DNA from: Simmondsia chinensis
Lineage: Eukaryota > Streptophyta > Magnoliopsida > Caryophyllales > Simmondsiaceae
Direction: 5' to 3'
NCBI GenBank assembly: GCA_018398585.1
Contig: JAGTTD010000009.1
Coordinates: forward strand, 16,249,193-16,313,192
DNA: 64,000 nt
The position numbers and the translations under genes are program-made. How positions within the stretch are numbered: position 1 is the first letter of the stretch; the number at the start of each line of letters is the position of its first letter. The notes under the pieces were generated by a model. The model had not been told where the DNA came from and searched no databases. It was given only the letters and a program-made list of their open reading frames with translations. Of this stretch, positions 7,660 to 50,976 are shown in pieces.

Positions 7660-8020
7660 CAACGGTTGGAATGCTCAGGTAGAATCTTGACCTGGGTAGT
7701 TGAACTCATCGATTATGACATCCAGTTCAAATCACAGACTATGATCAAGGCACGGGCGCTGGCCGACTTCCAAGCTAAACGCTCGTTCACCAATAACACT
7801 TCACTAAGTCCAAAGTTGGCGGATGTCTCTGAGAAATCATGGAAGTTATATGTTGACGGATCTTCTAACAGTCGGGGAAGTGGGGCCGGATTCTGCCCAT
7901 TTCGCCCTAAAAACAACATTTCCCATACGCACTTAGGTTTAAGTTCAAGGCCAGCAACAATGAAGCTGAATATGAAGCACTCTTCCATGGGTTGAGAATA
8001 GCACAGAAGGCAGGGTCATG
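7660..8020 (+). pseudogene. RNase H domain, first half (Tat-like)
   Basis: The frame from 7666 reads VELIDYDIQFKSQTMIKARA, then LADFQA, then WKLYVDGSSNSRGSGAGF, the RNase H strand with the first catalytic Asp. Shortly after, another frame gives FKASNNEAEYEALFHGL with the catalytic Glu. A frameshift near 7890 separates them. RNase H degrades the RNA strand after minus-strand DNA synthesis. The second half follows in the duplicated block from 8020. Confidence 0.7.
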
Positions 8021-17482: not shown

Positions 17483-17840
17483 AAATATAAATTGCTTTTC
17501 AATGTTGCTTTTGTATAGTTGTACTTTCATTAATTTTATCTCCTTTCGTAGTTTTAAAAGTATAAATAACTAACATTTATACGCATGTTTTAGCAGATGC
17601 AATATATGTGGATTAGTGTAGGTAGAACACAATATGTATGATCCTCCTCGTTCTTTAAATTCAATATGTCGAAGCGGGACTTTCATCCTTTTTTTAAGTT
17701 GCTTTTCTGTTAACACAACTATATATCCTCCCTTCACGCTATGAATATTTGTAAAACTTATTGTTTTAGCAATTACAGCTGGGTGTATATCTACCAAAGA
17801 AGGCACCAACACGCCGTTACCGGATCCCATTAAAACTTTG

Positions 17841-17891
17841 AAGTTAAGCATGCTTGGGCGAGAGTAGCACCAAGATGGGTGACCTCCTGGG
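17841..17891 (+). promoter_or_regulatory. 5S-type internal pol III promoter (A and C boxes)
   Basis: AAGTTAAGCATGCTTGGGC (17841-17859) and GATGGGTGACCTCCTGGG (17874-17891) match the A-box and C-box of plant 5S rRNA genes at nearly their normal spacing. Such a type 1 internal promoter could drive pol III transcription of the SINE; activity is inferred. Confidence 0.65.
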
Positions 17892-17971
17892 AAGTCCTCA
17901 CCCTTAGGTTGGGGGCACTGGGAAACAACCTCTCTTTAGGTTAACACCTGAAGGGGGAAGGCTGCGTACAT

Positions 17972-17999
17972 CCCCCCCCCCCCCCCCCCCCCCCCCCCC
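17972..17999. repeat. 28-C homopolymer in SINE
   Basis: The run sits directly after TACATCC-type sequence, the same position as the 24-C tract in the SINE at 9296-9460. Confidence 0.9.
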
Positions 18000-18285
18000 A
18001 GACCCTGCGTAGGCGGGAGCCCTTGAGGCACTGGGTATGTTCCTTAAAGCTGGGTGTATATCTGCTTTCGCTATATTAATAATAGCGGGCTCCAATAGAA
18101 TATTGTTTTACCTGTGTGCTGCGTTTGACCTCCACTACTTACAGATGATCTGAATTGTTTGTATAATTTGCAAGATTTCCTCCAAAGTTGGCATTTAAAT
18201 AGAGTTGGGTGTATGTGACCTTGAGGTTGCATATGCCCATTTTGAGCAACAAAAATGGAAGCAATGTCTTTTCTTAGTCTTCTCT

Positions 18286-18358
18286 ATACAATAATAATAA
18301 CAGACCCAGTGCCTTAAGGGCTCCCGTGTAAGCCGGGTCTGGGAGGGGTGGATCTGGT
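18286..18358 (-). mobile_element. Truncated Au-like SINE
   Basis: CAGTGCCTTAAGGGCTCCCG and GGGTCTGGGAGGGGTGGATC are the reverse-complement SINE tail. The element stops before its 5' part. Confidence 0.6.
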
Positions 18359-20510
18359 GCTGTAGTGCATGGTAAATGAACCCCTTTTCTTAGTCTTCTC
18401 TATGTAACATATTTTCATTTATATTTCTAGGTTCTTTTGATCACAGGTATCGATCAATTCCAAAATAGAGACATGTAATAAAATTTATGGATCTTTTCAA
18501 CGCTGCTTTTATATTAAAAAAAAAACCCATATTGATGGTGTTCTCTTGGTTCTCCTTTTGCAGATCATGTCATGCCAGTACTATTTGCATCTGCTTTTTA
18601 CATTATAAAAATTGGATCAATTTTCTAAAAGTCAAGTGTTCCTATTTGCCATCTGGCTTATTCTTATTTTTGCTCATATTTTATTATCTATTGCAAGCTA
18701 TCATGACTTCTTACTGTAACTTTGCCAAAAAAAAATAATTAAAAAAAAAAAATTATGCCTTGTTTGACAATTGGGTCAAGGGGGTAAAGAGGGGTAGAGT
18801 AATGAGGGGTAAATGAGTTGAATTCAGGGCGAATGGGGTTTACTCTACCTTATGATGCTAAAAAGATTAATTTCCTAGTTCAATACCAAAAAACTTTTAT
18901 TAGTACTAATGCAATATCTTTCTTTCTAACTTAGTAAGTATAGTGCCATAAAAGTTTACTTATGTCTAGTTTGGTGCCTTTTTAGTCATTCTTCCAAGAT
19001 AAGAATATGATTTTAATTTTAGAAAAATCAATATTACATAGAAAAAAACAAATAGTAAAAGGCTTAGGGTGCGTTTGATTTAGCTTATTTCAGCTTATTT
19101 GTTTCAATAAGATCTGTCCATTTAAGATCTATATCTTTTCCTAGTGAAGTATTTGGTTGTGTAATGCAGAAACAAAAGTTTACAAAATAAAGTAGTTCAA
19201 TACAAGTTAAAAAGTAACTTATCTACTATAATTACAAAAATAACATAATCATATAAATTATCTAATTATAGTAGGTAAGATAGAATCATGATAATAATTG
19301 ATCATGGTAGTAGAAAGTGGTGAATGTAGCGACCCATGACCATAAAAGGTATGGTGGTCAGTGGGAGTAGTGATAACAAGTAAAAGTAGGTCATGGTGGT
19401 AAATATTTATTGTTAGTTTAATGTTTTTAAAGCATTTCTCTTTAAATAAGTCATGAAAAAAATCCAATTTTGCTTCTTTTTCTGCTTAATTATAAAACAG
19501 CTTTTTCATCTTTCTATTTAAGCCTTGAAAAAGATATACAAAGATCTTTTCTACCAACAAAAGGTAAGCCTGCAGTCAAAATGAGCTTTTTCACAACTTT
19601 AAGCTGCTAAAAAGGTAAACCAAACGCAGCTCTAGTAGTGTGATTGTTTCCAAAAATGTTTTTTGAAATAAAAGTTATTACTTTCCATTTAAAAAAAAAA
19701 AGTAAAAGGCATTTGTTCGATTGAGATAAGTGACTAGAACTCCAATTCACTCATTGAACCATTAAAGCATAATATATCAAAGAGTTTTTTACATTTTAGT
19801 ACTTGATATTTTTGAAAATAGGCCCTTTTGTCGTATTAATAAAAAAGGCCCTTTTTAGTGTGATGAAGTCATTTTTTATCGACAGAACAGGTATGACAAC
19901 TGTTTTTTATTTATGCTACAGTGAAATGACAAAAGTATCCTTCAATACTTTTATTTACGTTATTAGCACAAAATTTGAGATGTTGTAATATGGTTTGACT
20001 ATCTATTTTTGCTTAATTCAGGGCATTTTTGTTATTTTACTGTAATACTAATAAAAAAGCAGATGTCACGTTAGCTCTGTAGACAAAAAATGACTTGTCA
20101 TGCAAGAAAGCAGACCTTTTATTAATACAAAAAAAACTTATGGGCCTTTTTATTAATATTACAAAAACTTAGGCGCCTTTCTATTAATTTAGAAAAATTG
20201 GAATTCTTTTTATTATTTTCAAAAATGTATTAACGGTTCAATGAGTGATATTGGAGTTATATTATCTCAAATAATCTACGTTATATTATAATATCAATTA
20301 ATATGTGAGATTCTTATATGTTATATATGTACTTATATGAGTACAATATGTCATACACGTGATTATTTCTTTAATTACGAGTGATGATATATGATAAAAG
20401 CAAGCTGATAACGTAACCGTTTTTCAAAAGCAACCCTTAACAAATTGGGGGCCTCAAGAAATTCATCTTGTTGCATACATTTTTCAACAATTTTTTTTTT
20501 TATAAATTAA
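18359..20510. other. AT-rich non-coding DNA with one MITE-like element
   Basis: 18480-18600 recurs in diverged form at 46109-46215 (GGTGTTCT, TTGGTT, CCTTTTGCAGATCA). 19065-19640 is bounded by AGGGTGCGTTTGATTTAGC and GTAAACCAAACGCAGCTCT, imperfect inverted ends of a GCGTTTGG-type MITE; no convincing target duplication is seen. 19780-20250 is a low-complexity segment. No coding family is recognised. Confidence 0.45.
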
Positions 20511-25565: not shown

Positions 25566-26008
25566 TGTTATAAATTGATACATTTTTACTTGTAATACAT
25601 TTTAATATTTCAGTTGTTATACTTGTCTAGTTTTCCTTTATTTAGTAGCTTCATTTAAATTCCAGTTTGTTCAGCTTTTGGTGCCAAAATGGCATTCGGG
25701 CAGTGAGGAGCTGGTTTGTTACAGAATTTGGCGGGAAAAGCAGTTAGGCCAGGGTTCTTAGCTGGTTTGGCGGGAATTAGTGATGACTTGTTTTAGCTTG
25801 ATTTGTCTTAATGCTTTGTACTCAAATATGTATAAATAGGGTCCTTAGCATGTAATTGAGGTATCCAATATATAAAAATCTGAATTCTTTTTGGAAACTC
25901 TTTATTTCTCATCTCCTTTCTCTATTTTCTCATCCCCTTCACTTCTGTTCTCATCTCAAACTCTTCTTCTACAAGGTTAGCCTTTTAATTTCTAATTGGA
26001 AGCTAACA
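25566..26008 (+). repeat. 5' LTR of chromovirus element
   Basis: Starts TGTTATAAATTG and ends GAAGCTAACA. A TATA box (TATAAATAGG at 25831-25840) is present and intact. Confidence 0.9.
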
Positions 26009-26010
26009 AT

Positions 26011-26022
26011 TGGTATCAAAGC
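26011..26022 (+). promoter_or_regulatory. Primer-binding site
   Basis: TGGTATCAAAGC, two bases after the LTR, is the usual complement of the initiator tRNA-Met 3' end found in plant Ty3/gypsy elements. Confidence 0.85.
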
Positions 26023-26041
26023 TGGTTTAACAATCAATTAA

Positions 26042-26330
26042 TTGATTAAGCTAGCAAAATCAGGTAAAATTATGGCCGATGGTGTAAGAACCAGGTTTGG
26101 TGCTAGTGGAGCGAATGCAATTGGTCAGAATCTGGATTTCATTGCTGCAGTTACTGGCAATGCGACAATCGGACCTCAAAATGCTACTAAAGAAGACCTT
26201 CACAATTTACAGAATGGTTTTAATCAAAAGATGGATCGAATTTTGGCATTGTTAATGGACAAAGATGCAAAGGATGCAAAAGTGCAAGACGATTTGAGGA
26301 TGCTGATCAGGGTACTTGCATTGCTGTTGC
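26042..26330 (+). pseudogene. Gag N-terminus, truncated
   Basis: The frame entering at 26071 begins MADGVRTRFGASGAN and continues to a coiled, charged segment (LHNLQNGFNQKMDRILALLM). It matches the N-terminal leader of plant chromovirus Gag. Near 26305 the frame runs into sequence from the RNase H end, which marks a deletion joint of roughly 3 kb, judged from normal element size. Confidence 0.65.
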
Positions 26331-26331
26331 C

Positions 26332-27786
26332 GTGGTGGTACCTTCATGGGTTGAAGAGCTACACAAGTCCTATGACAGTGATCCTTTTGCTCCGGAAAAA
26401 CTTGTCACTGCAGTCCTTAAACCCGAGGCCAATGTCGATGCTGCAGAACCTATCATCACCGTGCAGAAAGGTGCAATCAGAATTGATGGAAGGTTGTATG
26501 TGGGTACTGCTACTGATTTGAGAAAACAGGTCATCCAGGCCTCACACGATGCTGCTTGGGGAGGTTACGCTGGTGTAGAAAGCACCTATCAAAGAATTAA
26601 AGCATACTTTACTTGGCCGAACATGAAAAAAGAGGTGAATGATTATGTTAAGTCTTTTGAAGTTTGCCAAAAAACGAAGTTGGGAGATCATCGATACAAG
26701 GGACTCCTTCAACCTCTTCCCATTCCGGATGGAGCATGGATCCACATTAGCATGGATTTCATTGAGGGATTGCCGAAGTCCGAAGGCAAGGAGGTCATAT
26801 GGGTAGTGGTGGATCGCTTCACCAAATACAGCCATTTCATTGCTCTTGCTCGACTCGTTACTGCTGAAAAGTTGGCAAGGATCTTCCTTGACAACATTTA
26901 CAAATTACATGGGTTGCCGCAATCCATTGTGTCGGATTGGGACAAAATTTTCACAAGCACCTTTTGGAGAGAACTGTTCAAATTAATGGGAACCACATTG
27001 GCACTTAGTTCCTCTTATCATCCTCAAATGGATGGCCAAACCGAGTGAGTCAACCAATGTGTAGAATAACATCTTCGGAGTATGGTCTTCTTAAGGCCCA
27101 AGGACTGGAACCATTGGCTTTCCTTAGCAGAATTTTGGTTTAATACCCACTTCCATACATCCATTGGCACTTCACCATTTCAAGCTTTGTATCGCTATCC
27201 TCCACCCTCTCCTATGATGTTACAGCAACCGAAAGTTACTGATTCTGCGGCAACCGATCTTGTGCAGCAGAGGAGAGACTCTATGCAAGCACTCAAGGAC
27301 AATCTCCAACAAGCCCGGGCTCGAATGAAGTATTATGCAGATCAGAAGAGGGTAGACAAAAACTATGACGTTGGGGACATTGTCTACCTCAAATTACGAC
27401 CGTATAGGCAATCATCCGTGGCTGCCAGACGCAATGTCAAGTTGTGTGCTCGTTTCTTCGGCACGTACAAAGTCTTGGAGAAAATTGGCAATGTCGCATA
27501 TAAGCTTGACTTACCTTCACATTCTTACATTCACCCCGTGTTTCATGTATCCCTACTTAAAAAACAGGTCAAGAGAGGTGCTGATGTTGCTCAAGACCCA
27601 CCTGCTGCTGAAACAAATGGACTACTGTTGCTGCAACCGCAAGTTGTCCGAGCTGGAAGAAAATTACAGATCAACAACAGGGCTGTGCAAGAAGTATTAG
27701 TGTCTTGGAGCAACTTAAACAAGAGCTTTACGACTTGGGAAGATTGCAAGTTTTTGAAGAGTCAATTTTCGAGCTTCACTTCTTGA
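26332..27786 (+). pseudogene. RNase H end, integrase and chromodomain-like tail
   Basis: The first frame (26332-27048) holds the RNase H tail, the zinc-binding region (H..., then KSFEVCQKTKLG) and the integrase core: SMDFIEGLPKSEGK with the first Asp, IVSDWDKIFTS with the second, and HPQMDGQTE with the Glu, cut by a TGA right after it. The second frame (27082-27786) holds the integrase C-terminus (GDIVYLKLRPYRQ, HPVFHVSLLKK) and a chromodomain-like end (EVLVSWSNLNKSFTTWEDCK). Chromodomains direct insertion to chromatin. The TGA, one further stop, and W for the usual R in SDRD suggest it is inactive. Confidence 0.85.
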
Positions 27787-27825
27787 GGACAAGAAGTTTC
27801 TCAAGAGGAAGGGAATATTATAAAT

Positions 27826-28259
27826 TGATATATTTTTATTTGTAATACGTTTTAATATTTCAGTTGTTATACTTGTCTAGTTTTCCTTTATTTAGTAGCT
27901 TCATTTAAATTCCAGTTTGTTCAGCTTTTGGCGCCAAAATGGCATTCGGGTAGTGAGGAGCTGGTTTGTTACAGAATTTGGCGGGAAAAGCAGTTAGGCT
28001 AGGGTTCTTAGCTGGTTTTGGAGGGAATTAGTGATGACTTGTGTTAGCTTGATTTGTCTTAATGCTTTGTACCCAAATATGTATAAATAGGGTCCTTAGC
28101 ATGTAATTGAGGTATCCAATATATAAAAATCTAAATTCCTTTTGGAAACTCGCTATTTCTCATCTCCTTTCTCTATTTTCTCATCCCCTTCATTTCTCTT
28201 CTCATCTCAAACTCTTCTTCTACAAGGTTAGCCATTCAATTTCTAATTGGAAGCTAACA
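27826..28259 (+). repeat. 3' LTR of chromovirus element
   Basis: Starts TATTATAAATTG (first dinucleotide mutated from TG) after the purine run AGAGGAAGGGAA, and ends GAAGCTAACA. It retains the TATAAATAGG box near 28082. Confidence 0.9.
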
Positions 28260-28800
28260 TGAATGTTGTTGTTGGTCGTGTTTGGTTAAGCTGTACAATA
28301 ACTATTTTCTTAGAAGAACCTTTTTGGAGAACCTATAAAAATTGTTGTGAACGGGAATAGTTCTATAAGAATTTTCTTTAGTTTTTGGCTTCTGCTTCTG
28401 CTTCTGCTTATGCTTCAAACCAGAGAAGTAGTTTCTATTATTTAAAAACACTTTCTTGTCAAAGACAAATCCTCCTAAAATCTGAAAGAGGAAAAAGCAC
28501 TTTACAAAAAGGAAGCTTGGCTAAATAGATCCTTGGATACTCTGTCGTTCTCTCTTGGCAGGTGCGTAATGTTAATCAGTTATCGTACGGATAGAATGTT
28601 TATTTGGCAACGATCCAGCAACAATCGTGCAAAGCTACGAAAGCGTTGTATAACCTCCCTTCCCTTTTTGTTTTGTGGTTCATCATGTTATTACTTGTGT
28701 TGCTGAATTTGTCATTTGTTATACCGCATTGCCGGCATGTCTTCTCTATTTGATGGGCCAGTCTATGTGTCTGAGTCACTTCCTACATTTTCAATTTCAG

Positions 28801-28872
28801 GCCATGATGGTTGATGAGGCGGACTCTTTTCTTTTCCGCCCGCACTTGGGTTTACATGCGAAATATCATGTT
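28801..28872 (+). pseudogene. SWA2: SWA2/NOC1 exon, copy U1
   Basis: Acceptor ATTTCAG and probable donor GTGTCT bound a frame AMMVDEADSFLFRPHLGLHA, then KYHV. FRPHLGL.AKYH is a strong block of plant NOC1/SWA2 within the CBF/Mak21 region. No stop. The duplicate at 37138 has lost the acceptor. Confidence 0.65.
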
Positions 28873-29283
28873 GTGTCTCACCCACTATTCAGTATTCTTA
28901 TTTATTTATCTTTGGTATCGTTTTCTGTCAACAACTTTTGGTTACTCTTGGAATTGAATGTCATATTCCAAAAATGATTTTTTGGCTTCTTGGTTCTCTA
29001 TTTTCAGTGTCTCATTATTTTACTAAAAACCAAAAACAGAAAAATAAAAACCAAAAAGTGCAAACAAGTAACAATGCCAGACAAACTCTTGGTTTGTATG
29101 TCTCATAGTTGATGTCCATTGGTCCTGCTATATTATGGTTCCTTGACCAAAAAGTGCAAGTGCATTTTACTTATGAGCTTTTCTGTGATAGAATTTCATA
29201 ATTCATGCATTTATAATGGCTGTAAATAAATTTTGTTTCTTATTGAAGTTAAAAATAAAAAATTTTGCACTTGTGTTTGCAAG

Positions 29284-29375
29284 TTAATTTCTTGAGCCAA
29301 ATTTGCTTGAGTTATTGAGGTGATGGACCCAAAGTAGCAAAAAGATTGATAGATGAATATTTTGCCCGCTTCAAG
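29284..29375 (+). pseudogene. SWA2: SWA2/NOC1 exon with stop, copy U1
   Basis: Acceptor GCAAG and donor GTAACC are present. The frame gives NFLSQICLSY, a TGA stop, then GDGPKVAKRLIDEYFARFK, matching the block that follows AKYH in NOC1. The nonsense codon shows this copy is not functional. Confidence 0.65.
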
Positions 29376-29793
29376 GTAACCTTTCCATGTGCCTGTGTGC
29401 TTCCGAGGTATATTTTAGGGCATACTGGGCCAATTCCCTTTTGGAATTTTTTTTAGGTTTTGACCGAAAAATGAACGTGCTTTTAAATAAAAGAAAGTTA
29501 TTTTTTTCCTTTTAAACATAAGCAGGAAAATAACATTTCTCCTTTAAAGTAAAAACTGTTGCAAAAAAAAAAAAAAAAAATTCAGACCAAAACACCCTTA
29601 TTTAAAGCACTTTTCAAAAAGTGCTTTGGCAAAAATTGCTTCTAGAAAAATATTTTTTTCACAGCTCAATGCACTTGTGGGAAAAGCCTGTTATTATAAA
29701 TGACCTTTTTTTTGGCAGAGGTTCTTTGGTAAAGAAATAGTAGTGTCCTATGGTGTTCTTCTTACCATTCTTACTTATGACATTCGTCTTCAG

Positions 29794-29940
29794 GTACTAA
29801 TATCCATGGCTAGTGTGACTTCGAAATCCAATAAAAGCAACAAAGCCGAGCCTAACAAAGCTTTAAAGAAGAAAATCAAAGAAGAAAATTCTTTAGAACA
29901 TGTGGAATGGATGCGCGACTTCTATCGGCTCCTCAAACCA
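29794..29940 (+). pseudogene. SWA2: SWA2/NOC1 Lys-rich exon, copy U1
   Basis: After the CTTCAG acceptor the frame reads VLISMASVTSKSNKSNKAEP, then a Lys-rich linker and ENSLEHVEWMRDFYRLLKP. The donor position reads ATAAGT instead of GTAAGT. The linker is the variable charged segment between two conserved CBF-domain blocks. Copies occur at 38140, 40712 and 51452. Confidence 0.6.
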
Positions 29941-30533
29941 TAAGTCTATTGATATTTTGGTCATGTACTTGGTACTATCAATCTTTGGAGTGATATTTTT
30001 TTAAATGTCAATGGCACCCCGTAGTGGATCAAGATGGTTCCATTGCTGAATGTAGTATTTTCTGTTTTACTTGGTTTAAGGGGGTGACAGACTCTTAACA
30101 TAGGCCGTGTTTGGTAAAAATAGCAGTAACAATTAGCAGTTAGTAGTTCCAGTAGTTAAGATTTAAGTGTTCCATAGAAAGTAGCAGTAGCAGCTACCTG
30201 TTTGACTGGCTACAGAGGCCTTGTGTTTGAAAGTACAAAACCCGATGTCTCCACTCTTCGTATTATATTTCAATAAAAGGTACAAAGTGTGTATATGCTG
30301 TATTCCCCATTTAAACTCAACAAACATTGCCATTCTGTGTGCCTCGTTAGATTACAAAACAGTTCTTAGGCCTTTTCCTAGCACTACAAGGTTTTGAGAC
30401 ACTTTGTTTCTTCACTGTCGCTGGTGCCATACTTTTACCCATTTTATTTGAACTCTAGAATCTGTCCACGGTATTGTATATGGTCTGGTAAGTTTCTAAG
30501 TTTTGACTTGTGACATATACTCTTTCCATATAG

Positions 30534-30618
30534 AGGCGTTAATAGAGCATTTCCTTTCGTTTTAGGCGATGAGGATGATGAAATCTTTGAAGTTCAAACA
30601 AATATGCTTTTCCAGCCG
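30534..30618 (+). pseudogene. SWA2: SWA2/NOC1 GVNRAFP exon, copy U1
   Basis: Acceptor TATAG and donor GTATGT flank GVNRAFPFVLGDEDDEIFEV, then QTNMLFQP. GVNRAFP followed by an acidic D-E-x-D/E stretch is a hallmark of the Mak21/NOC1 family and fixes the identity of the whole exon series. No stop. Copies are at 38833 and 41440. Confidence 0.7.
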
Positions 30619-31049
30619 GTATGTTGACATGTTCCTATCGAATTTATCACTAGTGGCGTCACAATGACCCAACCTGACCTGGCGTTGGTCGACCTGATAA
30701 TCTTTGTATGATTTTTTTTTTTTTTTTTTTGGAGCTACGATTCCATTTGTTTTTTGATATAGAATTCCTCTGCTTTGACTAGAATTTCCTAATGGAAAAT
30801 ATTTCTTACGGGGAAAATTTTTCATCACCTAGTTATTTTCACTAAAAATATTTGTTTTTTTAATAGCTGAAGAAAATAGTTTTATTTTATAATTATATAT
30901 GAGATTCACCTTAGCCAAGTTGAGGTTTAAGCGAAGCATATAACATCACATTACAACATACAATGTTTCCCCATTTTGTTGAGGGGAAGTCAATTTTTCC
31001 TCAATAGAGGTGAATATTTTTCATATTTTGTGAGGGTTATAAAATAATG

Positions 31050-33340
31050 CAAAGAAACAATAAAATCTGGACCTGGGACTTATTGGTGCACTTAAAAGAA
31101 AGCACGTTACACTTAGTGATGGTTGCTAGGCACATTGCTTAGCCTATTAGTTCATTTCCATGGGGAAATCTTTTGAGTTACTTTGGTAAATGCTTTGACA
31201 CAATCCATTGATCAATTTGAAATTGTTGTTTGCGTGCAATGCACTGCCCTTTGTAGTCACATTGAGCTATTTCTAGGGAATACATTTTTCTTTTTGAAGT
31301 GTTATATTTGCAAAAGATTAAATAAAATACGTGTTATCTACCAATGTTATTATTGCTTTTATGCTTCTCAAATTGGGGGACCTCGGACACAGCCTCCCTT
31401 TAGGGTAGCGCCCTGAAGGGGTAAGGCTGCGTACATCCCACCCACCCTAAACCCTGCATATGCAGGAGCCCTTGAGGCACTGGGTATGTTGTTATTGTTG
31501 TTTTTAATAAAATGTTCTAGAATCATTAGTTTCCATGTCTTTGATAGTTTTTACTTCTTTAACATGTAATATTTATAACTATGTTTCAAGAAATGTTCAT
31601 GTGTACTATTGTATAACGGCCAATTGCGGAATTGGTAGCTAAAAATATGTTTCATAGTAACTGTTATACTATGTAACAACCTCTCTCTGATTCTTATGGG
31701 TTTACAATTGGATTTAATTTCCAAGAATGTTTACTTCATCTACGTATGTTGTTATATTATTCGAGTTCTCCTTGTATAGGCCCACCGACTCAAATTGATA
31801 TCACATTGTTCTTGTGCACGAAGTTGTAGTTTTAAGTCTTAAACGAGATTTTAAAATGAAAGATTAGTCATCAATTCTTGTCCACATCATGCAGGTATGT
31901 CTTTAACTAATCCGTTGATGCTTATTGTAATAATTACCCGAGGCCAAACAACATTTGACCATTTGATTATTTTATTGGAGATTAATGGACAACCATTGCA
32001 AACGTTGCTCCGTCAACTTTGCCTTAATTGGAGTCATGCCTAGTTTGTTTCTTATAACGTCATTTTGGAAACAAAGAAACAATTTCGCTGTTGGTTCATC
32101 TTGTGCTTTTAGAGATTTAGAGGAGAGTAAACAGAAGTGGTGTATGGAAGTTAGATACTGGAACTTTGCCAAGAGCAAACAATTGAAAGCTCACTTCGGA
32201 TCTTCTTTTTTTGATAGATTTCCTTTTTGTCTTTCAAACACATGCTCTTTCTACATAGTTTGTATTCTTAACTAGGATTTTGTGTGTTTATTCGTCGTTA
32301 ACTATTTAGCGCTAGTTTTTGTTTCGATAATTTTAATGCTTCCGTTGCATATATATAGATATCGAAAGGGAAAAAAAAGAGAGAATTATGATTTTGATTT
32401 CATGTAGTTTCCTATTTGACATGTTTGTTTGCTCTTTGTCTAGAACTTGACATTTTTATTTTGGCACAGACATTTAATTGTATTCTTATTATGTTTTATA
32501 AATCCTTCACCTACAGTGAGGAGCGACGGAAATGGAAGTTGTGTCCTCTCTTCGTTTTTCCCCTCGAATTTCTTTTGTTCTGTGAAGTTCTTACTTTTAT
32601 TGTCTTTGTGTTGTATTTAACTTCCAAATAGGTACAATGTATCATGGATGTGGTGTACAAAATGATGTATTTTTTTGGCCTTTATGATTCAATTTGTGGA
32701 TTGTATGTCCAAGCATAACCGGTGAAGAATGAGGAAGGACAAGAATTTCAAAATTTGCAAGTGATATGATGTAGGTATAAATCTATACCTAAAACTAATA
32801 TTTTGGTGCAAACCTTTACAATATAAAGGCCTTCATCAAGTATACAATCGTGATCTTTTCTTGGGTCCTTTCTGCAGTCCATGGCATATGCTGTACAAAG
32901 CATTTTCAATTAATTTGCTAGAAGACTAGAAATTGAACCTATCCTTTTTTCAAATGATCAAAGCTTCATTCTATATAATTTTGTTGATTTGTTAATTTTT
33001 GTCCTCTCTTTCCTCCACTATAGCATTGTGTTTCATCTCTTTATAGATATCCAACCTCCCGGTATTGGAAGGAAATAGGAGAAAATATAAGATGAGTTCT
33101 CTCAGGCCAGGGATAGTAATTTCGGGGACAGAAACCTCAAGTTGCTATTACTCGAGCAACGTTGGTTGTGGTAAAGGATGCTTTGCCGGACGGTTAGAGA
33201 CATTATATGTGGATTTTTTAAGAGAATTAGGTTGTGCTAAGGCAGATAAGTAAGGTCGATGGACAAAGTTTTGCATCCTTGAGCTCAACTATGAAATCTT
33301 TTACCACTTTGCATAAATTTATTAGTGTCTTATATTTTTG
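31050..33340 (+). repeat. Segmental block X, copy U1
   Basis: Non-coding block following the GVNRAFP exon. Aligned copies: 39340-40584, 41990-44240, 50985-51345 and, more diverged, 21760-23140. 33065-33250 is open and copies of it at 44035-44180 can be read as coding-like (VAATGATLVMVKDAL, then a stop), but I recognise no family. Confidence 0.7.
31329..31505 (+). mobile_element. Au-like SINE in block X, copy U1
   Basis: Flanked by AATAAAAT (31321-31328 and 31506-31513). The tail is canonical (GGGTAGCGCCCTGAAGGGG, GGCTGCGTACATCC, GGAGCCCTTGAGGCACTGGG, (GTT)n). The same insertion sits at 39624 and 42260 but not in U0. Confidence 0.85.
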
Positions 33341-33394
33341 TCTTTGTTTTACACCAAAAGACGCTCGAGTTAGTTGACATTTTCAGATGAGTGG

Positions 33395-34370
33395 CTATAG
33401 ATTCAAGTAAATTATGTTTGTGTAGGGAGCCATTAACTGACTTCTTTGACCTTCTTCAGGCATAGCTAAAACCATAGACTCAAATAATATCGGCTTTGCA
33501 TAAGCTTTGGACAATGTAGGAGGGTTGAGTGCCTTAACTAAGTTTTTGATCTTGGGCTTGAGCCCACTGATGAAGCTAGAAACATAGAAGGCCTCCCTTG
33601 CTTCTAGAGTTATGGACATCTGTTATGATCTGAGAATCCGAGGCATGAACTCGAGGTGGCTGTGATGCTGTTCTGCTGCTATGCTGCTACTGTTAGCAAG
33701 TCTGTCCTACATGGGTGGCTGTCTTGCAGTCATGTGACTATCATTTGGTGTAGGAAAGTTGAATTAGTTTGTTGATATTGTATCTAGATTGAGTCTTGAT
33801 GTAATTAGTGGCTTAAGTCTCTTATAAGTCATGTAATAAGTGAGCTTAAGTGTGGACTTGCTTAGGAGGTCAATGGCCGGTCAAGGGTGGCGGCTAATTA
33901 GTTAGTTGGTGGTTAAGTCGGTTAGCTCCTTGGTCCAAATGCAATATATCTCTAGATATTTTTAGTCTAAGCCATCCTAGGAGGAAGTAGTATAAATAGA
34001 TGGCTTTAGCTTGTATCCAACAACTTTGATGAATGTAATTGATATCTTTGATATCTCTTGCTTTACTTCTCACCTCCTTTCCCTTCTTATCTCTTCTTAA
34101 TTCTAAATTCTCTCCTCATCTCATACTCTCTCTATCCCAATCAAGGTTAAGGTTCAAGAGCAATCTTTGAAACCTTAACAACATCATTCTTACTTTTAAA
34201 TTTTCAAATCAGGTCATGTACTCCTTGACACTGCTTATTGAGCTATCTTATTAAAAGTGTCCACTACGTCCCCCGGATCTTCATCTCTATACCTGTCACA
34301 CATTTCATCCACAAACTCTCGCCATGCAAGAGTTGGATTACCAAGGATTAGGCTATGAAACGAAATTTCA
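33395..34370 (-). pseudogene. Ty3/gypsy gag fragment split by a solo LTR
   Basis: Reading leftward on the minus strand, WREFVDEMCDRYRDEDPGDV (near 34320) leads via FNKIAQ and a frameshift to SVKEYMT. After the solo LTR (33621-34180) comes EAREAFYVSSFISGLKPKI and KNLVKALNPPTLSKAYAKP. This is the plant retrotransposon gag capsid pattern. The paralogous segment near 44375 lacks it, so the fragment arrived after duplication. No other parts of the element are present. Confidence 0.75.
33621..34180 (+). repeat. Solo LTR, 560 bp
   Basis: Starts TGTTATGATCTGAG, ends ACCTTAACA, with a perfect 5-bp duplication ACATC on both sides (33616-33620, 34181-34185). TATA box TATAAATAGA at 33991. No internal region remains, as expected after LTR-LTR recombination. 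A related solo LTR lies at 54506-54981. Confidence 0.9.
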
Positions 34371-35726
34371 TACCCTTGGTGTTGGCATTTTGATTCCAAT
34401 AATCTTATGCTTTTTATTTTGAGGCTACTATGTTCTATAGTGATCATTACATAATGGATTTGGGCTAACCATTACTTGATTGGCGAATACGAGGCAATAC
34501 TTTTGAAAACCACAAGATATACACAATGTATGTTACATGCCTGTGAATCCTTTGGCTAATGGTGTGTAGTATTAAGGTTGAGGCCCTATCACAAGAGGTC
34601 GTAAGTTCAATCCCTTTAGCCCCAACCTGCTTAATTACTAGAAAATGTATACATGTTAGAAGCTATAAAGGATGTATTATTTTCAATGACTTTAACTTAC
34701 TCGATAATTATGGCTCTTTATATGATGCCCGTGCCTGGTTTTCTTATATCATGTCCATGACCACAAGCACTAATTTGGTTTTGTTGTCTACTTAGGAATA
34801 GGAAATTGTAATTGGTTTTGGCAATATATTTTTTTTTTTTTTTTTTTTTTTGGGAAACCATCTATCATTTAAAAAAAGATTTTTGTGGATTTTCAGATTC
34901 TAGTTTCCCTTTTCTTTCATATTCACTTCCTTTTATTTGGTTCAATATTCATGTGTATTCCTCATTCTTTCCTTTTTTGTGGTATGTTCAGTCCATGACA
35001 CCACTCATAGTTTCGTTTTTGATTTTGCACCTAAGGATTTGTCATTCTGTTTGTGGGTCATTGTGTTATTTTTGTACATTTGGAGGTTGGCAAGCATAAA
35101 TATTTTGTGGCTTAAAATGCGTTCAAAATTTCCACTTAATTGCCGAATTAAATAGGCCTGAAGCTCTTGTTTTGGCCTCGAGAATCTATTTATAGGATTC
35201 TACTTCTGCCTATTTTGAGGATTTCACTATAACTTGTGTTTTGATTTTTTTGTTCTCCGCGTCAGAATTGTCTAGTGTGCTTGAGTTAAAAATAAAGGAA
35301 ATTATTGTTAGGGTAAAAATTACTATTTTCAAAGGAATGATGTAACTTACAAAAAACAATGAGAGCCACAAAATTGTTTTGAAAACAACAATCTTGCTCT
35401 GGCAATAACAATTTTTTTTTTCTGATTAAAAAGAAAATGAGGGTTCGTTGTTCATTATGCTGGAAGTAATTTGAATTGGAAGCATGGCAGGTGTTTAGGT
35501 AATATCTTTCACGTCTTCTTCTCTCAGTGGTTTACCTTAAAATTTAAAAATGTCAGTTAGCTTATGAAATAACTAAGTAATACAAGTATATTTCCAATGT
35601 TGATTTATGCTTAATTATATGCAAAAACTCTTGAGGCACTGAGTTTATTGTTGTTATATGCAGAAACCCTATTGCTCTAGATCTCTTATTACTATTCCGT
35701 ACATAATTAGATCCAATAATATATGA
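34371..35726. repeat. Segmental block Y, copy U1
   Basis: Aligns with 44380-45840 over its length (anchors CATACCCTTGGTGTTGGCAT, TACTAGAAAATGTATACATG, GGTGTTTAGGTAATATCTTT). 35620-35656 is a 3' SINE scrap (CTCTTGAGGCACTGAGTTTA) absent from the other copy. Otherwise non-coding; 34830-34851 is a poly-T run. Confidence 0.7.
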
Positions 35727-35893
35727 CTCGAGTTGGAAATGAGTGAGCCTGCTGGGCTCATTTACGCCCTTATGTGGCATGATGTTGTCATGCTAGTTCT
35801 GAAAGTAATGTTGAAATTAGGAAATTCTTTGAACTTCCATTTATAATCGTTTAAAATATTATTCATATGTCCATCCATGGATGTTCATGTTAG

Positions 35894-35969
35894 GTATGAA
35901 TGCGTAGCTTCTGCACTCGAAGAGGCATCTAAGGATGTGTTAGATGTACTCAAAGACAAGGCATTAAAG
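35894..35969 (+). pseudogene. SWA2: SWA2/NOC1 exon, copy U2, donor lost
   Basis: Encodes YECVASALEEASKDVLDVLK, then DKALK. LEEASKD is nearer the usual family wording than copy U1. The donor GTGAGC of U1 reads ATGAGC here, so splicing is expected to fail. Confidence 0.6.
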
Positions 35970-37137
35970 ATGAGCTTTTGAATTTTGTTGCTCAATAAGT
36001 TTTATCTCTTTTATAATGTTTTGATCAATCTCTATCAGTTTAGTTAATTCTTCTTGATAAGATTTCATCAAAAAATAAGGTTGCCAATGATCGTTTTTAT
36101 CATCCATATATTCAAATTGGCTTTATACTAGAATTGCTTGGTCAAAGTTTGTTGGACTTTGGATACATTAATTTAAAAAACAACTCATCTATTTAAAATA
36201 CAAACACAATAGGTGGGAATATAATTCTATGAATTCAATTTATTGTAGATAATATTAGCCATAATTGTGGTTGCAAAAAGCATAATCTATAGTAAAGAAG
36301 AGTTACAATCAATAATTTGAGAGTTGAATTGACAAATCAAGTAGCACATAGAATATGGGTAATTGATTGACATTAAGTATTCATTGTTTTCAATTAATCT
36401 TCTTTTAATCGGGAAAATCTGAATATGTGTTATAAGACGTGTATTGTACCAATAACATTAGAAAACGTGCAGTTTACTATATTATTGGCAATTATATATG
36501 GACACCCATTTTCAATGGGAAAATACAAATACGCGTTCTATATATGTGTTTTTGAACTAATAAAGTTCCATATATGTATACAGACGATTTACGTACTACT
36601 AAGAAGTAAACCAGAAAAGGATTGCATTATGCATTGTTTAACAAAATAAGTCTCTGATTCCACTTCTTTGTCCTAAGATCAAAAATCATTTTAGTTGCGG
36701 TTTATGGAGCTCTCACAAAAATAATTTTTGTTTTCGGCTTCTGCTCCAGCTTCAAACTAGAGAAGTAGTTTTTATTATTTAAAAACACTTTCTTGTCAAA
36801 AACAAATCCTCCTAAAATCTGAAAGAGGAAAAAGCACTTTACAAAAAGGAAGCTTGGCTAAATAGATCCTGGAATACTCTGTCATTCTCTCTTGGCAGGT
36901 GCATAATGTTAATTAGTCATCGTACGCATAGAATGTTTATTTGGAAAAGATCAAGCAACAATCGTGCAAAGCTGTGCAAGCTTTGTATAACCTCCCTTCC
37001 CTTTTTGTTTTGTGGTTCATCATGTTATTACTTGTGCTGCTGAATCTGTCATTTTTAATACCACATTGCCGGTATGTCTTCTCCATTTGATGGGCCAGTC
37101 TATGTGTCTGAGTCACTTCCTACATTTTCAATTTCGG

Positions 37138-37209
37138 GCCGTGATGGTTGATGAGGTGGACTCTTTTCTTTTCGGCCCGCGCTTGGGTTTACATGCGAAA
37201 TATCATGTT
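37138..37209 (+). pseudogene. SWA2: SWA2/NOC1 exon, copy U2, acceptor lost
   Basis: Encodes VMVDEVDSFLFGPRLGLHA, then KYHV. The acceptor reads TTTCGG instead of TTTCAG, and FRPHLGL has become FGPRLGL. U2 keeps the more usual VDEVDSF. Confidence 0.6.
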
Positions 37210-37627
37210 GTGTCTCACCCACTATTCAATATTCTTACTTATTTATGGTCTCTTTGGTATCATTTTCTGTCGGCAACTTTTGGTTACTCTAGAAACTGAA
37301 TTTCATATTCCGGAAATGATTTTTTTGCTTCTTGGTTCTCAATTTTCAGTGTTTCATTATTTGACTAAAAACCAAAAACAGAAAGATAAAAACCAGAAAG
37401 TGTAAACAAATAACAATGCCAGACAAACTCTTGGTTTATATGGCTCATAGTTGATGTCCATTAGTCCTGCTATATTATGGTTCCTAGACCAAAAAGTGCT
37501 AGTGCATTTTCCTTATGTACTGGTTTTTGTGATAGGATTTCATAATTCATGCATTTATAAGAGTTACATATAAATTTTGTCTTTTATTGAATTTAAAATA
37601 AAAAAAATTTTACACTTATATTTGCAG

Positions 37628-37720
37628 CTTAATTTCTTGAGCCAAATTTTCTTGAGTTACTACTGTGATGTACCAAAAGTAGCAAAAAGATTGATAGATG
37701 TATATTTTGCCCGCTTTAAG
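37628..37720 (+). pseudogene. SWA2: SWA2/NOC1 exon, copy U2
   Basis: TTGCAG acceptor and GTATTA donor present. The frame NFLSQIFLSYYCDVPKVAKR, then LIDVYFARFK, has no stop, unlike copy U1, but the conserved GDGPK has become CDVPK. Confidence 0.6.
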
Positions 37721-38139
37721 GTATTATTACCTTTCCGTCTGCCTGTGTGCTTCTGAGATATATTTTACGGCATGTTGGGCCAATTCTTTTCTGGAATTTT
37801 TTTAGGTTTTTGACCAAAAAACAAACATGCTTTTAAATAAAAGTAAGTTATTTATTTTCTTTTAAACATAAACAGGAAAATAACGTTTCTCCTTTAAAGC
37901 AAAAGCTGTTGTAAAAATTTTAAAAATTCAAACAAAAATACCCTTATTTAAAGCGCCTTTCAAAAAAGTGCTTTTGCAAAAATTGCTTCTCGAAGAATAG
38001 TTTTTCACCGCTCAATGCATTTGTGGGAAAAGCCTGTTATTCTAAATGAACTCTTTTTTGGCTGAGGTTCTTTGGTAAAGAAAAAGTAGTGTTCTATAGT
38101 GTTCTTCTTAACATTGTTGCTTATGACCTTTGTCTTCCG

Positions 38140-38272
38140 GTATTGATATCCGGGGCTAGTGTGACTCCGAAATCCAATAAAAGCAACAACGCCGAGCCCA
38201 ACAAAGCTTTGAAGAAGAAGATTCATTAGAACATGTGGAATGGATTCGCGACTTCTATCGGCTCTTCTAACT
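38140..38272 (+). pseudogene. SWA2: SWA2/NOC1 Lys-rich exon, copy U2, frameshifted
   Basis: The acceptor CAG reads CCG. A 13-bp deletion near 38213 removes the IKEEN-equivalent part and shifts the frame. The donor GTAAGT is intact. Confidence 0.6.
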
Positions 38273-38832
38273 GTAAGTCTATTGATATTTTGGTCATCTA
38301 TTTGGTGCTATCAATCTTTGGAGTGACATTTTCTTAAATGTGACTGGCACCCTGCAATGGATTAAGATGATTTCATAACTGGATGTAGTATTTTTTCTTT
38401 TTTACGTTGTTTAAGGGGGTGACAGACTCTTGACATAGGTTAAATTTTTTAAAAATAGTAGTAACAATTAGCAGTTAGTAGTTTCAGTAGTTAAGTTTTG
38501 AGTGTTCCATAGAAAGAAGCAGTAGCAGCTACCTATTTTACTTGCTACAGAGGCCTTGAGCTTGAAAGTTTGAAACCCGGTTTCTCCACCCTTTGTATTA
38601 TATTTCAATACAAGGTACAAAGTGTGTATATGCTATATTCCTCAATTAAAATCAACAGACATAGCCATTCTAGCTGCCGTATTTGATTACAAAACGGTTC
38701 TTAGGCCTTTTCCTTCCACTGCAAGGTTTTAAGACACTTTGTTTCTTCACTGTCACTGGTGCCACGGTATTGTATATGGTTTGGTAAGTTTCTAGGTTTT
38801 GACCTGTGACATATACTCTTTCAGTATGCAAG

Positions 38833-38915
38833 GCGTTAATAGAGCATTTCCTTTCGTATCAGGCGATGAGGCTGATGAAATCATTGAAGTTCAGACAACT
38901 ATTCTTTTCCAGCTG
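38833..38915 (+). pseudogene. SWA2: SWA2/NOC1 GVNRAFP exon, copy U2
   Basis: GVNRAFPFVSGDEADEIIEV, then QTTILFQL. The D-E-A-D-E-I-I-E-V-Q-T wording is the usual one. The acceptor reads GCA where U1 has TAG; the donor GTATGT is intact. Confidence 0.65.
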
Positions 38916-39623
38916 GTATGTTGACATGATCCTATCGAATGTATCACTAGTGGGGTCACAATGACCCAACCCGACCTGGCCTGGGTCAACCCGGTAATCT
39001 TTATATGATTCCTTTTTTTTTGGAGCTACGATTCCTTTTCCTTTTTTTTTATATTGAATTCCTCTGCTTCGACTAGAATTTCTCAATGGAAAGGGTTTCT
39101 TACGGGGAAAGTTTTTCACAACCAAGTTATTTTCACTGAAAATATTTGTTTCTCAAAAACTTATTTTTGTAACTAAAGAAAATAGTTTCATTTTATAATT
39201 ATATATGAGATTTAGCTTAGCCAAGGTGAGGCTTAAATGAAGCATATGGCATTATGTATCAATGGAAAATGTTTCCCCATTTTTTTATTTTCCCTTAACA
39301 GAGGAGAATAATTTTAATATTTTGTAAGGATTATGAAATAATGCAAAGAAACAATAAAATTTGGACTTGGGACTTATTGGTGCACTTAAAAGAAAGCATG
39401 TTACACTTAGTGATGGTGGCTAGGCACGTTGCTTGGCCTATGAGTTCATTCCCCTTGGGAAATCATTTAAATTACATTGGTAAATGCTTTGAAACAATCC
39501 ATTGATCAATTTGAAATTGTTGTTTACGTGTTATGTGATGTCCTTTGTAGTCAGATTGAGCTATTTCTAGGGAACACAAATTTCTATTTTGAAGTTTTAT
39601 ATTTGCAAAAGATTAAATAAAAT

Positions 39624-39800
39624 ACGTGGTATCTACCGATGTTATTGTTGCTTTTATGCTTCTCAAATTGGGGGACCGCAGGAACAACCTCCCTTTATGG
39701 TAGCACCTTGAAGGAGTAAGGCTGCATATATCCCACCCGCCCCAAACCCAACATATGCAGGAGCCCTTGAGGCACTGGGTCTGTTATTGTTGTTGTTGTT
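39624..39800 (+). mobile_element. Au-like SINE in block X, copy U2
   Basis: Same insertion site and AATAAAAT duplication as 31329-31505 (39616-39623 and 39801-39808), hence copied with the segment. Confidence 0.85.
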
Positions 39801-40711
39801 AATAAAATGTTATAGAATCATTAGTTTCCACATCTTTGATAGCTTTTACTTCTTCAACATGTAATATTTATAATTATGTATCAAGAAATGTTCATTTGTA
39901 CTATTGTATAACAGCCAATTGCGGGATTGGTGGCCCAAAATATGTTTCATAGTAGCTGTTATACTATGTAACAACCTTTCTCTAATTCATGTGGGTTTAC
40001 CATTGGATTTAATTTCCAAGATTATTCGAGTTCTCCTTGTATAGGCCCATCTGCTCAAATGGATATCACATTGTGCTTGTGCACAAAGCTGTAGTTTTAA
40101 GTCCAAAATGAGATTTTAAAATGAAAGATTAGTCATTTATTCTTGTTTGCATCATGTAGGTAATGTCTTTAACTAATCCATTGATGCTGACTGTAATGAT
40201 TCCACAAGGCCAAACAACATTTGACCATTTGATTATTTTATTGGAGATTGATGGACAACCATTACAGACAACATTCCCTCAACTTGGCTTAATTGGAGTC
40301 ATGCCAAATTTGTTCCTTATAACGTCATTTAGAAACTTACTGGTCCATCTTATGGTTTTGGGTATTTTGAGAAGAGCAAACAGAAGTGGTGTATGGAAGT
40401 TAGACATTGGAACTTTGCCAGGAGCAAAAAATTCAAAGCTCACTTTGCATGCTCTTATTTTCATAGATTTCCTTTTTGTCTTTAAAATACATGTTGTCTC
40501 TACATGGTGTGCATTCTTACATAGGGTTTTGTATGTTGATTCATTATCAACTGTTCAGTGCTAGTTTTTGTTTCAAAAATTTTTATGCACTTGTGGGAAA
40601 AGGCTGTTACTCTAAACAAACTTTTTTTTTTGGCAAAGGTTCTTTGGTAAAGAAACAGTAGTGTCCTATGGTGTTCTTCTTAACATTCTTGCTTATGACA
40701 TTTGTCTTCAG

Positions 40712-40857
40712 GTATTGATATCCGAGGCTAGTGTGACTCCAAAATCCAATAAAAGCAACAAAGCTGAGCCTAACAAAGCTTTGAAGAAGAAAATCAAAGA
40801 AGAAAATTCATTAGAACATGTGGAATGGATTCGTGACTTCTATCGGCTCTTCTAACC
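40712..40857 (+). pseudogene. SWA2: SWA2/NOC1 Lys-rich exon, copy U3
   Basis: TCTTCAG acceptor and GTAAGT donor are both intact. VLISEASVTPKSNKSNKAEP keeps the expected LISEA wording. The frame ends RDFYRLF with TAA two codons before the donor, so it is still broken. Confidence 0.6.
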
Positions 40858-41439
40858 GTAAGTCTATTGACATTTTGGTCATCTATTTGCTACTATTGAT
40901 CTTTGGAGTGACATTTTTTTAAACGTGACTGGCATCCTACATTGGGTCAAGATGATTTTATAGTAGAATGTGGTATTTTCTGTTTTACTTTGTTTAAGGG
41001 GGGTGACAGACTCTTAACATAGGCCGTATTTGGTAAAAATTGCAGTAACAATTAGTAGTTAGTAGTTTTAGTTGTTAAGAATTGAGTGTTCCATAGAAAG
41101 AAGCAATAGCAGCCACCTGTTTGACTGGCTACAAAGCCTTGACCTGACTTCTCCACTCTTTGTATTATACTTCAATACAAGGTATAAAGTGTGTATATGC
41201 CCTATTCCCTATTTAAACTCAACAGACATTGCCATTCTGGGCGCATTGTTAGAGTATAAAAACGGCTCTTAGGCCTTCTCCTAATACTGCAGGGTTTTAA
41301 GACACTTTGTTTCTTCACTATTGCTGGTGCCATATTTTTCACCCATTCTATTTGAAATCTATAATCTTTGTAGGGTATTGCGCATGGTTTGGTAAATTTC
41401 TAAGTTTTGACATGTGACATATACTCTTTCGGTGTACAG

Positions 41440-41521
41440 GGCATTAATAGAGCATTTTCTTTCGTTTCAAGCGATGAGGCTGATGAAATCATTGAAGTTC
41501 AAACACATGCTTTTCCAGCTG
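41440..41521 (+). pseudogene. SWA2: SWA2/NOC1 GVNRAFP exon, copy U3, donor lost
   Basis: TACAG acceptor intact. GINRAFSFVSSDEADEIIEV, then QTHAFPA after a small deletion. The donor reads GCTACG where U1 has GGTATG. Confidence 0.6.
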
Positions 41522-42259
41522 CTACGTGGACATGTTCCTATCGAATTTATCACAAGTGGCGGCCAATCAGTTGGGTCATAATGACACAATCCAACCCGGC
41601 CTTGGTCGACCTAGTAATCTTTACATGATTCCATCTTTTTTGGAGCTATGATTCCATTTTTTTTTTTTTTTTTTTTGATGTAGAATTCTTCTACTTGGAC
41701 TAGAATTTCTTAATGGAAAACATTTCTTTCAGGAAAAATTTTCATCACAAGTTATTTTCACTAAAAATTTTTGTTTCTCAAAAACTTGTTTTTATAGCTA
41801 AAGAAAATAGTTTTATTTTATAATTATATATGAGATTCACCTTAGCCAAGTTAAGGCTTAAGTGAAGCATATAACATTGCATTACAATGGAAAATGTTTT
41901 TCCGTTTTGTTGAGGGGAAGTCAATTTTCCCTCAAGGGAGCAGAACATTTTTCTTATTTTGTAAGGGTTATGAAATTATGCAAAGAAATAATAAAATTTG
42001 GACCAGGGACGTATTGGTGCACTTAAAAGAAAGCATGTTACACTTAGTGACGTTTGTTGGGCACGTTGCTTGGCCTATTAGTTCATTTCCATGGGGAAAT
42101 CTTTTGAATTACTGTGGTAAATGCTTTGAAACAATCCATTGATCAATTTGAAGCTTTGTTTATGTCTTTTGTACTGCCCTTTGTAGTCACATTGAGCTAT
42201 TTCTAGGGAATAAAAATTTCTTTTTTGAAGTGTTATATATGCAAAAGATTAAATAAAAT

Positions 42260-42430
42260 AAGTGTTATGTACCATTCTAATTGTTGCTTTTATGCTTCTC
42301 AGATTGCGGGACCTCGGACGTAGCCTCTCATTAGAGTAGCATCCTGAAGGGGTAAGGTTGCGTACATCCCACCCGCCTTAGACCCTGCAAATGCAGGAGC
42401 CCTTGAGGCACTGGGTATGTGGTTGTTGTT
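42260..42430 (+). mobile_element. Au-like SINE in block X, copy U3
   Basis: Same site as in U1 and U2, AATAAAAT at 42252-42259 and 42431-42438. Confidence 0.85.
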
Positions 42431-45400: not shown

Positions 45401-45840
45401 AATAACAATTTTTCCCTATCAATAACATTACCTAATATAAAATATAGGTTTGGGAAGGATGAAATGATTTGAACTTGTCAATGCAAGAATTCGCTAATTT
45501 ATTTAGCACAGCGGTCATTAGGTTGTCCTTCTCCTTTCTTTCTTAACTATCATAAAAGCAGAGTAGTTAAAATCCATGAGGGATCATTTCTCATTAGGCT
45601 AAAAGTCTATTTTGAATTGGATGCATGGTAGGTGTTTAGGTAATATCTTTCATATCTTCTTCTGTAAGTGGTTTACCTTAAAATTTAAACATGTTAGTTA
45701 GCTAATGAAACAACTATGTAAATAATAGAAGTATATTTATAATGTTGATTTATGCTTAATTATATGGAGAAACCCTATTACTCTAGACTCTTATTAGTGT
45801 TCAGTGCTTAATTAGATCCAATAATATATGACTTTTCGAT

Positions 45841-50834: not shown

Positions 50835-50976
50835 CCTGGGTCTTTGGAAACAACCTCTCTTCAGGGTAGCCCCCTGAAGGGGGAAGGCTGCGTACATCTA
50901 CCCTCCCAGATTCTACTTATGCAGGAGCCCTTGGAGGCACTAGGTTTTTTGTTGTTGTTGTTGTTGTTTGTATTAT
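50835..50976 (+). mobile_element. Au-like SINE at the left edge of copy U4
   Basis: GGAAACAACCTCTCTTCAGG, GGCTGCGTACATC and GGAGCCCTTGGAGGCACTAG with (GTT)n. The tail joins directly to block X sequence, so it marks or caused the duplication breakpoint. Confidence 0.75.

Follow-up and report, generated by a model that had tools for sequence, protein, structure and literature searches.

The locus described here raises the question of whether a plant SINE can be headed by 5S rRNA sequence and, if so, whether the element belongs to a family or arose in a single event. The window, by which we mean the whole 64,000-nucleotide stretch of Simmondsia chinensis DNA analysed, contains one element in which a 5S-like head is joined to a tail that shares homology with the 3' end of a LINE, a non-LTR retrotransposon. 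The explanation that best accounts for the evidence, to which we assign a probability of roughly 0.93, is that this element is one member of an abundant, fairly young SINE family with a 5S-derived type 1 Pol III promoter at its 5' end and a tail taken over from a LINE that ends in (TTG)n and probably belongs to the RTE clade.

Anatomy of the window copy

The SINE is 255 bp long, lies on the plus strand at window positions 17793-18047 and is flanked by perfect 16-bp target duplications. Within the window, the 16-mer AGCTGGGTGTATATCT is confined to two sites, 17777-17792 on the left and 18048-18063 on the right, so that the boundaries assigned to the SINE and its duplications by an earlier, sequence-only reading of this DNA were correct. 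With one mismatch allowed, the duplication lengthens to 20 bp, a score reached in none of 200 shuffles, and the whole window has just four direct repeats that match exactly over 14 bp or more with a spacing of 200-399, the pair around the SINE included. Stop codons are present in every frame of the element, which is thus non-coding.

From the 5' end, the element consists of a 5S-like head in the Rfam sense (118 nt, 17793-17910), a tail homologous to LINE 3' ends (17903-18041) and an element-specific 3' terminus (18042-18047), which in many copies reads TTCC followed by T-rich sequence. The head itself divides into a 25-nt leader (17793-17817) and a 5S-derived promoter region corresponding to 5S positions 26-107 (17818-17899). 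Within the tail, a run of 28 C residues (17972-17999) stands where the family consensus has approximately eight; this is an expansion, and of the other 39 copies compared, two (L090 and L091) have similar runs of 23 and 26 C.

A genome-wide family

The junction of head and tail, sought as a 30-mer with at most two mismatches, was found at 7,701 places (3,839 forward and 3,862 reverse) in the 831-Mb genome, which comprises 35 contigs, and the reversed sequence, used as a control, was found at none. A search with the element yielded 41 listed matches at the 40 places scored out of 7,129 candidates, which were the best-scoring ones and are hence biased to full length; 40 of the 41 join head and tail, and the remaining one covers bases 61-253. 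Thirty-nine of the 40 other best places were fetched (the partial match falls within one of these stretches) and, together with the window copy, gave 40 copies for comparison, mostly 230-260 bp in length. Across the first 225 bases of their consensus, the copies are identical to it at 94.6-99.6%, with the window copy the most diverged. All of the fetched best matches but one align from base 1 (38 of 39), and the exception aligns from base 5.

A second sample comprised 30 exact-junction places in positional order on contig 1, one of which (L183) is also in the first sample. With full length defined as a start within 9 bases and an alignment reaching base 225, 20 of these 30 copies are full length, and 21 align from within the first 5 bases. 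Their identity to the consensus averages 94.8% (range 85.4-98.4%).

For a target duplication to be called clear, it had to beat 99% of mismatched flank pairs (1,560 pairs for the first set and 870 for the second). Clear duplications surround 21 of the 40 best-scoring copies, with 19 below the threshold, and 13 of the 30 positional-order copies, with 17 below it. In 16 of the 21, the duplication directly adjoins the first base of the 5S alignment. At least three passes are doubtful, as the repeat falls in the T-rich SINE end (L127) or consists of AT repeats 14 and 24 nt from the start (L166 and L182). The duplicated sequence differs between loci, except for one common to L121 and L122, which look like copies of one locus. 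Comparison of the flanks with the window and the fetched loci revealed no empty site. Among the differences from the consensus in the 40 copies, 223 of 278 are C>T or G>A, as expected for the deamination of methylated cytosines in silenced repeats.

The sequence-only reading had proposed that a family would be established by numerous full-length copies, each containing head and tail between target duplications of its own, and that a type 1 promoter head on an Au-like tail could define a distinct SINE group. The recurrence of the junction and the duplications found in both samples bear out the family, and a distinct SINE group is supported as well. The members are short, non-coding and present in high copy number on both strands, individual copies carry target-site duplications, and the 3' end is shared with a LINE, all of which are defining features of SINEs.

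The 5S-derived head

Over 17793-17910, the head matches the Rfam 5S model RF00001 at model positions 1-120 with 50.1 bits (gathering score 38; E 1.9e-07), and 5S is the only Rfam family that it matches above gathering score. The Rfam fold gives the head a length of 118 bp, and a count that stops where the sequence is last clearly 5S gives 107 bp. Compared with an Arabidopsis-type 5S reference, a sequence typed from recall, the window head is identical at 72 of 81 bases (positions 27-107) and the family consensus at 79 of 82 (positions 26-107). The internal control region is included in this homology, as in a 5S-derived SINE. We take its limits on the head to be 17842-17856 for the A box (5S positions 50-64), 17859-17864 for the intermediate element (67-72) and 17872-17889 for the C box (80-97). 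In the family consensus, all three are the same as in Arabidopsis-type 5S; in the window copy, the intermediate element is unchanged and the A-box and C-box regions have one G>A each. Because of these two changes, the promoter of the window copy may be weakened.

Host 5S genes were examined among the best 40 of 1,756 candidates scored. They reside mainly on contig 8, where a tandem array accounts for most of the 39 matches, and the fortieth match is on contig 29; one array unit and the contig 29 copy were then read. In the best rows, identity between the host genes and Arabidopsis-type 5S is 94%. Against the one array unit, over 5S positions 26-107, the SINE consensus is identical at 78 of 82 bases and the window copy at 73 of 82. 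The consensus and the host array have T39 and A49 in common, which is consistent with the head having originated in the host lineage. In a separate observation, the host 5S unit L194 on contig 8 has AAGATGGGTGACCTCTTG in the C-box region where the SINE consensus has AGGATGGGTGACCTCCTG, as in Arabidopsis-type 5S; an earlier form of the host 5S promoter may survive in the SINE.

The leader is of a different character. Consensus positions 1-25 match the host 5S unit at 9 of 25 bases (2 of 12 over positions 1-12 and 7 of 8 over positions 13-20). The proposal of a 5S-like head was thus upheld by the Rfam match and by positions 26-107, and does not extend to the first 25 or so nucleotides, which are not recognisably 5S except at positions 13-20. 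A search for the 25-nt leader in five LINE stretches and the host 5S unit gave nothing beyond short matches due to chance and the two SINE copies that lie inside one of the LINE loci (L161). The 5S spacing is retained without gaps through the leader, and the clear duplications mostly adjoin 5S position 1. Since the boxes of a type 1 promoter would direct initiation to a point a constant distance upstream of them, the kept spacing and a start at 5S position 1 are what would be expected of a captured 5S fragment with a type 1 promoter.

These features also bear on the alternative that the head derives from the LTR of Cassandra, a TRIM element with a 5S promoter, instead of from a 5S gene. Cassandra carries a 5S core of approximately 70 bp in plants (PMC10853983, in the part that treats this core), and a leader unlike 5S is as expected for the flank of a captured core. 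Against such a source, the head stands at the extreme 5' end of the element, starting at the 5S +1 spacing, and its identity to the host 5S unit (78 of 82) includes the shared T39 and A49, in a comparison confined to the host 5S genes. We therefore consider descent from Cassandra improbable. The element is itself no Cassandra TRIM: its target duplications sit directly at 5S +1 and after the tail, and it has no LTRs.

The tail and its probable partner LINE

The sequence-only reading had regarded the tail as shared by all other SINEs in the window. An nhmmer search located 11 further tail-like stretches there, including a weak match (E 1.4e-4) and an incomplete one, and in none of the 11 was the junction present even at six mismatches. 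These other copies look like 5'-truncated LINE ends, not SINEs, because their genomic counterparts end in TTG repeats and are preceded by long sequence that is truncated to varying extents. With the tail-only copy at 31340-31500 as query, 40 matches were scored out of 5,302 candidates. Thirty loci were cut out, of which 16 lie in the repeat cluster around the window on contig 4, and the other 14 were studied. All 14 have TTG-rich repeat ends, and the upstream sequence that they have in common varies in length from almost none (L155 and L158) to 1.4 kb (L157), a pattern that is that of 5'-truncated LINEs. Consensus bases 111-233 of the SINE match these LINE ends at 80-86% outside the cluster and 75-82% within it, taking the best row per locus; single extra rows fall to 73%.

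A reverse transcriptase domain (RVT_1, E 2.4e-16) is encoded on the tail's strand in LINE copy L160. Among the five LINE protein pieces analysed, this is the one above the Pfam cut-off; two, in L159 and L161, fell below it (29.3 and 16.1 against 29.6 bits), and two match nothing. Against an RTE assignment, the nearest solved structures to the LINE protein are R2 proteins. We take the motifs of the LINE protein to resemble those of RTE-clade reverse transcriptases, and because of this resemblance and the TTG-repeat end, rather than of a tree, the partner LINE is probably a member of the RTE clade.

The 3' terminus of the SINE, TTCC(T)n, differs from the (TTG)n of the LINE, and recognition of the SINE by this LINE is therefore not proven. 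In two diverged copies, L167 and L192, the tail is closer to that of the LINE and finishes in TGTTGTT rather than in TTCC(T)n. These copies suggest that the terminus of the family may have been LINE-like at first and changed later.

Several other repeats were observed around these sequences. At L161 (contig 22, 13863600-13868600), two 5S-SINE copies, 98% and 93% identical to the consensus, lie beside the LINE copy on the opposite strand. Window positions 28396-45833 and 50967-52523 contain repeated segments approximately 75-89% alike, three of which (at 31, 39 and 42 kb) carry the same LINE end, and further copies of this LINE-end repeat piece are spread between 15.9 and 17.8 Mb of the contig. 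Separately, a frame with Integrase_H2C2 and rve (just below the cut-off) at 26224-27048 is flanked by two 442-bp direct repeats that are 95.9% identical (25568-26008 and 27818-28259), and the stretch 25568-28259 looks like a short LTR retrotransposon.

Origin of the head-tail junction

Each copy could in principle be a one-off chimera, formed when the LINE enzyme switched template from the LINE's own 3' end to 5S rRNA. Chimeric retrocopies from template switching are known in mammals, and a neighbouring insert in the window, at 18288-18383, joins part of the tail to a different 5' piece within its own 20-bp duplication. One-off events of this kind would not, however, reproduce an identical junction at 7,701 places, a common non-5S leader and 40 copies that stay within 94.6-99.6% of one consensus, and the recurring identical junction refutes this origin for the family as a whole. 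We regard it as very unlikely; a one-off template switch may have founded the family and cannot explain its copies.

The neighbouring insert is an observation in its own right. It is 96 bp long, lies on the minus strand and is enclosed by a perfect 20-bp duplication, ATAGAGAAGACTAAGAAAAG (18268-18403 with the duplication). The 3' half of the LINE tail is joined in it to a 5' piece of approximately 30 nt, and an Rfam search with the insert gave nothing at gathering score. The insert is possibly a template-switch chimera.

Independent insertion of a 5S pseudogene and, next to it, of a tail fragment has next to no probability and is refuted, as one duplication pair encloses both modules in the window and at many other copies, the identical junction recurs at 7,701 places, and nothing was found in their favour. 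The same enclosing pair supports the single retroposition of a fused RNA that had been deduced from the window copy.

Other sources were also considered and rejected. A tRNA-derived plant SINE does not account for the head, which is 5S by Rfam; ARAGORN found no tRNA genes in the window, a search that a decayed head would escape. Among viral sequences, no real relative was present in the 37 stretches that fitted a gapped pattern of the junction or in the 43 that contained a 15-mer of the tail, and the one hit, a weak 36-bp match in L024, was due to the search pattern itself. Prokaryotic collections scanned for 5S-tail joins returned one contig, a chance pattern match.

Proposed mechanism and predicted RNA fold

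The observed anatomy, common start, target duplications, copy number, tail-LINE homology and reverse transcriptase domain in one LINE copy can be arranged into a mechanism for the family, of which we infer the transcription, the factor binding and the source of the enzyme, like the RTE assignment, from sequence. TFIIIA/TFIIIC and Pol III would bind the A box, intermediate element and C box, and Pol III would start at a fixed upstream distance, such that element base 1 equals 5S base 1. Transcription would end in the 3' T run. The common 3' end of approximately 120 nt would then be recognised by the LINE reverse transcriptase, and the SINE RNA would be inserted by target-primed reverse transcription, leaving duplications of approximately 12-21 bp.

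The head alone is predicted to adopt a 5S-like three-armed fold of -40.3 kcal/mol (z -1.60), compared with -41.9 kcal/mol (z -1.61) for 5S. In this predicted fold, the leader pairs with bases 109-117, and the sequence from base 111 on is LINE tail. As many closing pairs were obtained with 6 of 2,000 shuffled leaders (positions 1-25), or 50 of 2,000 when positions 1-12 alone were shuffled, and an equally stable fold with 43 and 14 of 2,000, respectively. No compensatory changes confirming the leader-tail pairs were found within the family. In the predicted fold of the whole element, two 5S arms are kept and the leader pairs with the 3' end instead (z -1.00).

Alu is thought to meet its LINE enzyme during translation through SRP proteins. 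By a more tentative proposal, against which we would place the odds, the present elements would be the first plant 5S-headed SINE family, independent of the animal ones, in which leader-tail pairing keeps a closed 5S-like three-armed RNA fold, and the RNA, possibly drawn into the 5S RNP/ribosome pathway, would there encounter the LINE enzyme as the latter is translated. One genome contains the parent 5S array, the 7,701 junctions, the tail-sharing LINE and the diverged copies whose tail is closer to the LINE, so that both promoter capture by a SINE and a role of RNA fold in retroposition are directly testable here.

Comparison with known systems

The tail of the window SINE may resemble the body of the Au SINE. 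Au and the Angio-domain superfamily have tRNA-type heads. In the portion of the wheat Au SINE paper PMC5787218 considered, "5S rRNA" is not mentioned, and a general 5S RNA superfamily of SINEs is named. The part of PMC3747384 (2013) that tabulates SINE/LINE pairs (Table 1) gives tRNA heads in all three land-plant rows. The plant RTE families counted in that source end in (TTG)n or (TTGATG)n, and the 3' 100 nt or so of the tobacco TS SINE are described there as matching an RTE LINE almost exactly, with TTG repeats in both elements; compared by description, TS differs from the window SINE in its tRNA-derived head.

Among plant retroelements, Cassandra has a 5S promoter, like the window SINE. It is an LTR element whose 5S region is never at the LTR termini, according to the relevant part of PMC10853983 (2024), whereas the window SINE has a terminal 5S region and no LTRs. 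The same part of that source calls the gain of promoters such as 5S well known "e.g. for SINEs in animals". No plant 5S-headed SINE is reported in the portions of PMC3747384, PMC10853983 and PMC5787218 considered, a statement about these sources that makes no claim of absence from print.

The closest parallels are in animals, and they are drawn by description. BovB belongs to the RTE clade. Table 1 of PMC3747384 includes springhare Ped-1, which has a mammalian host, likewise joins a 5S-derived Pol III head to a LINE (BovB) 3' end, and is likened to the window SINE by description, not by sequence. The SINE3/DeuSINEs (zebrafish SINE3, AmnSINE1 and OS-SINE1), as described in the same part of PMC3747384, have a 5S-derived head too, with CR1 or RSg-1 tails and vertebrate hosts. 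The T39 and A49 in common with the host 5S would fit an origin of the present family independent of these animal 5S SINEs and are no proof of it. The present family would show that SINEs outside animals, too, have captured a type 1 (5S) Pol III promoter, and that there were two or more origins of a 5S head on an apparently RTE-type tail, in the springhare and in this genome. The element is of a known kind, the 5S-headed SINE, best known from animals, and occurs here in a plant host with a tail shared with a TTG-ending LINE.
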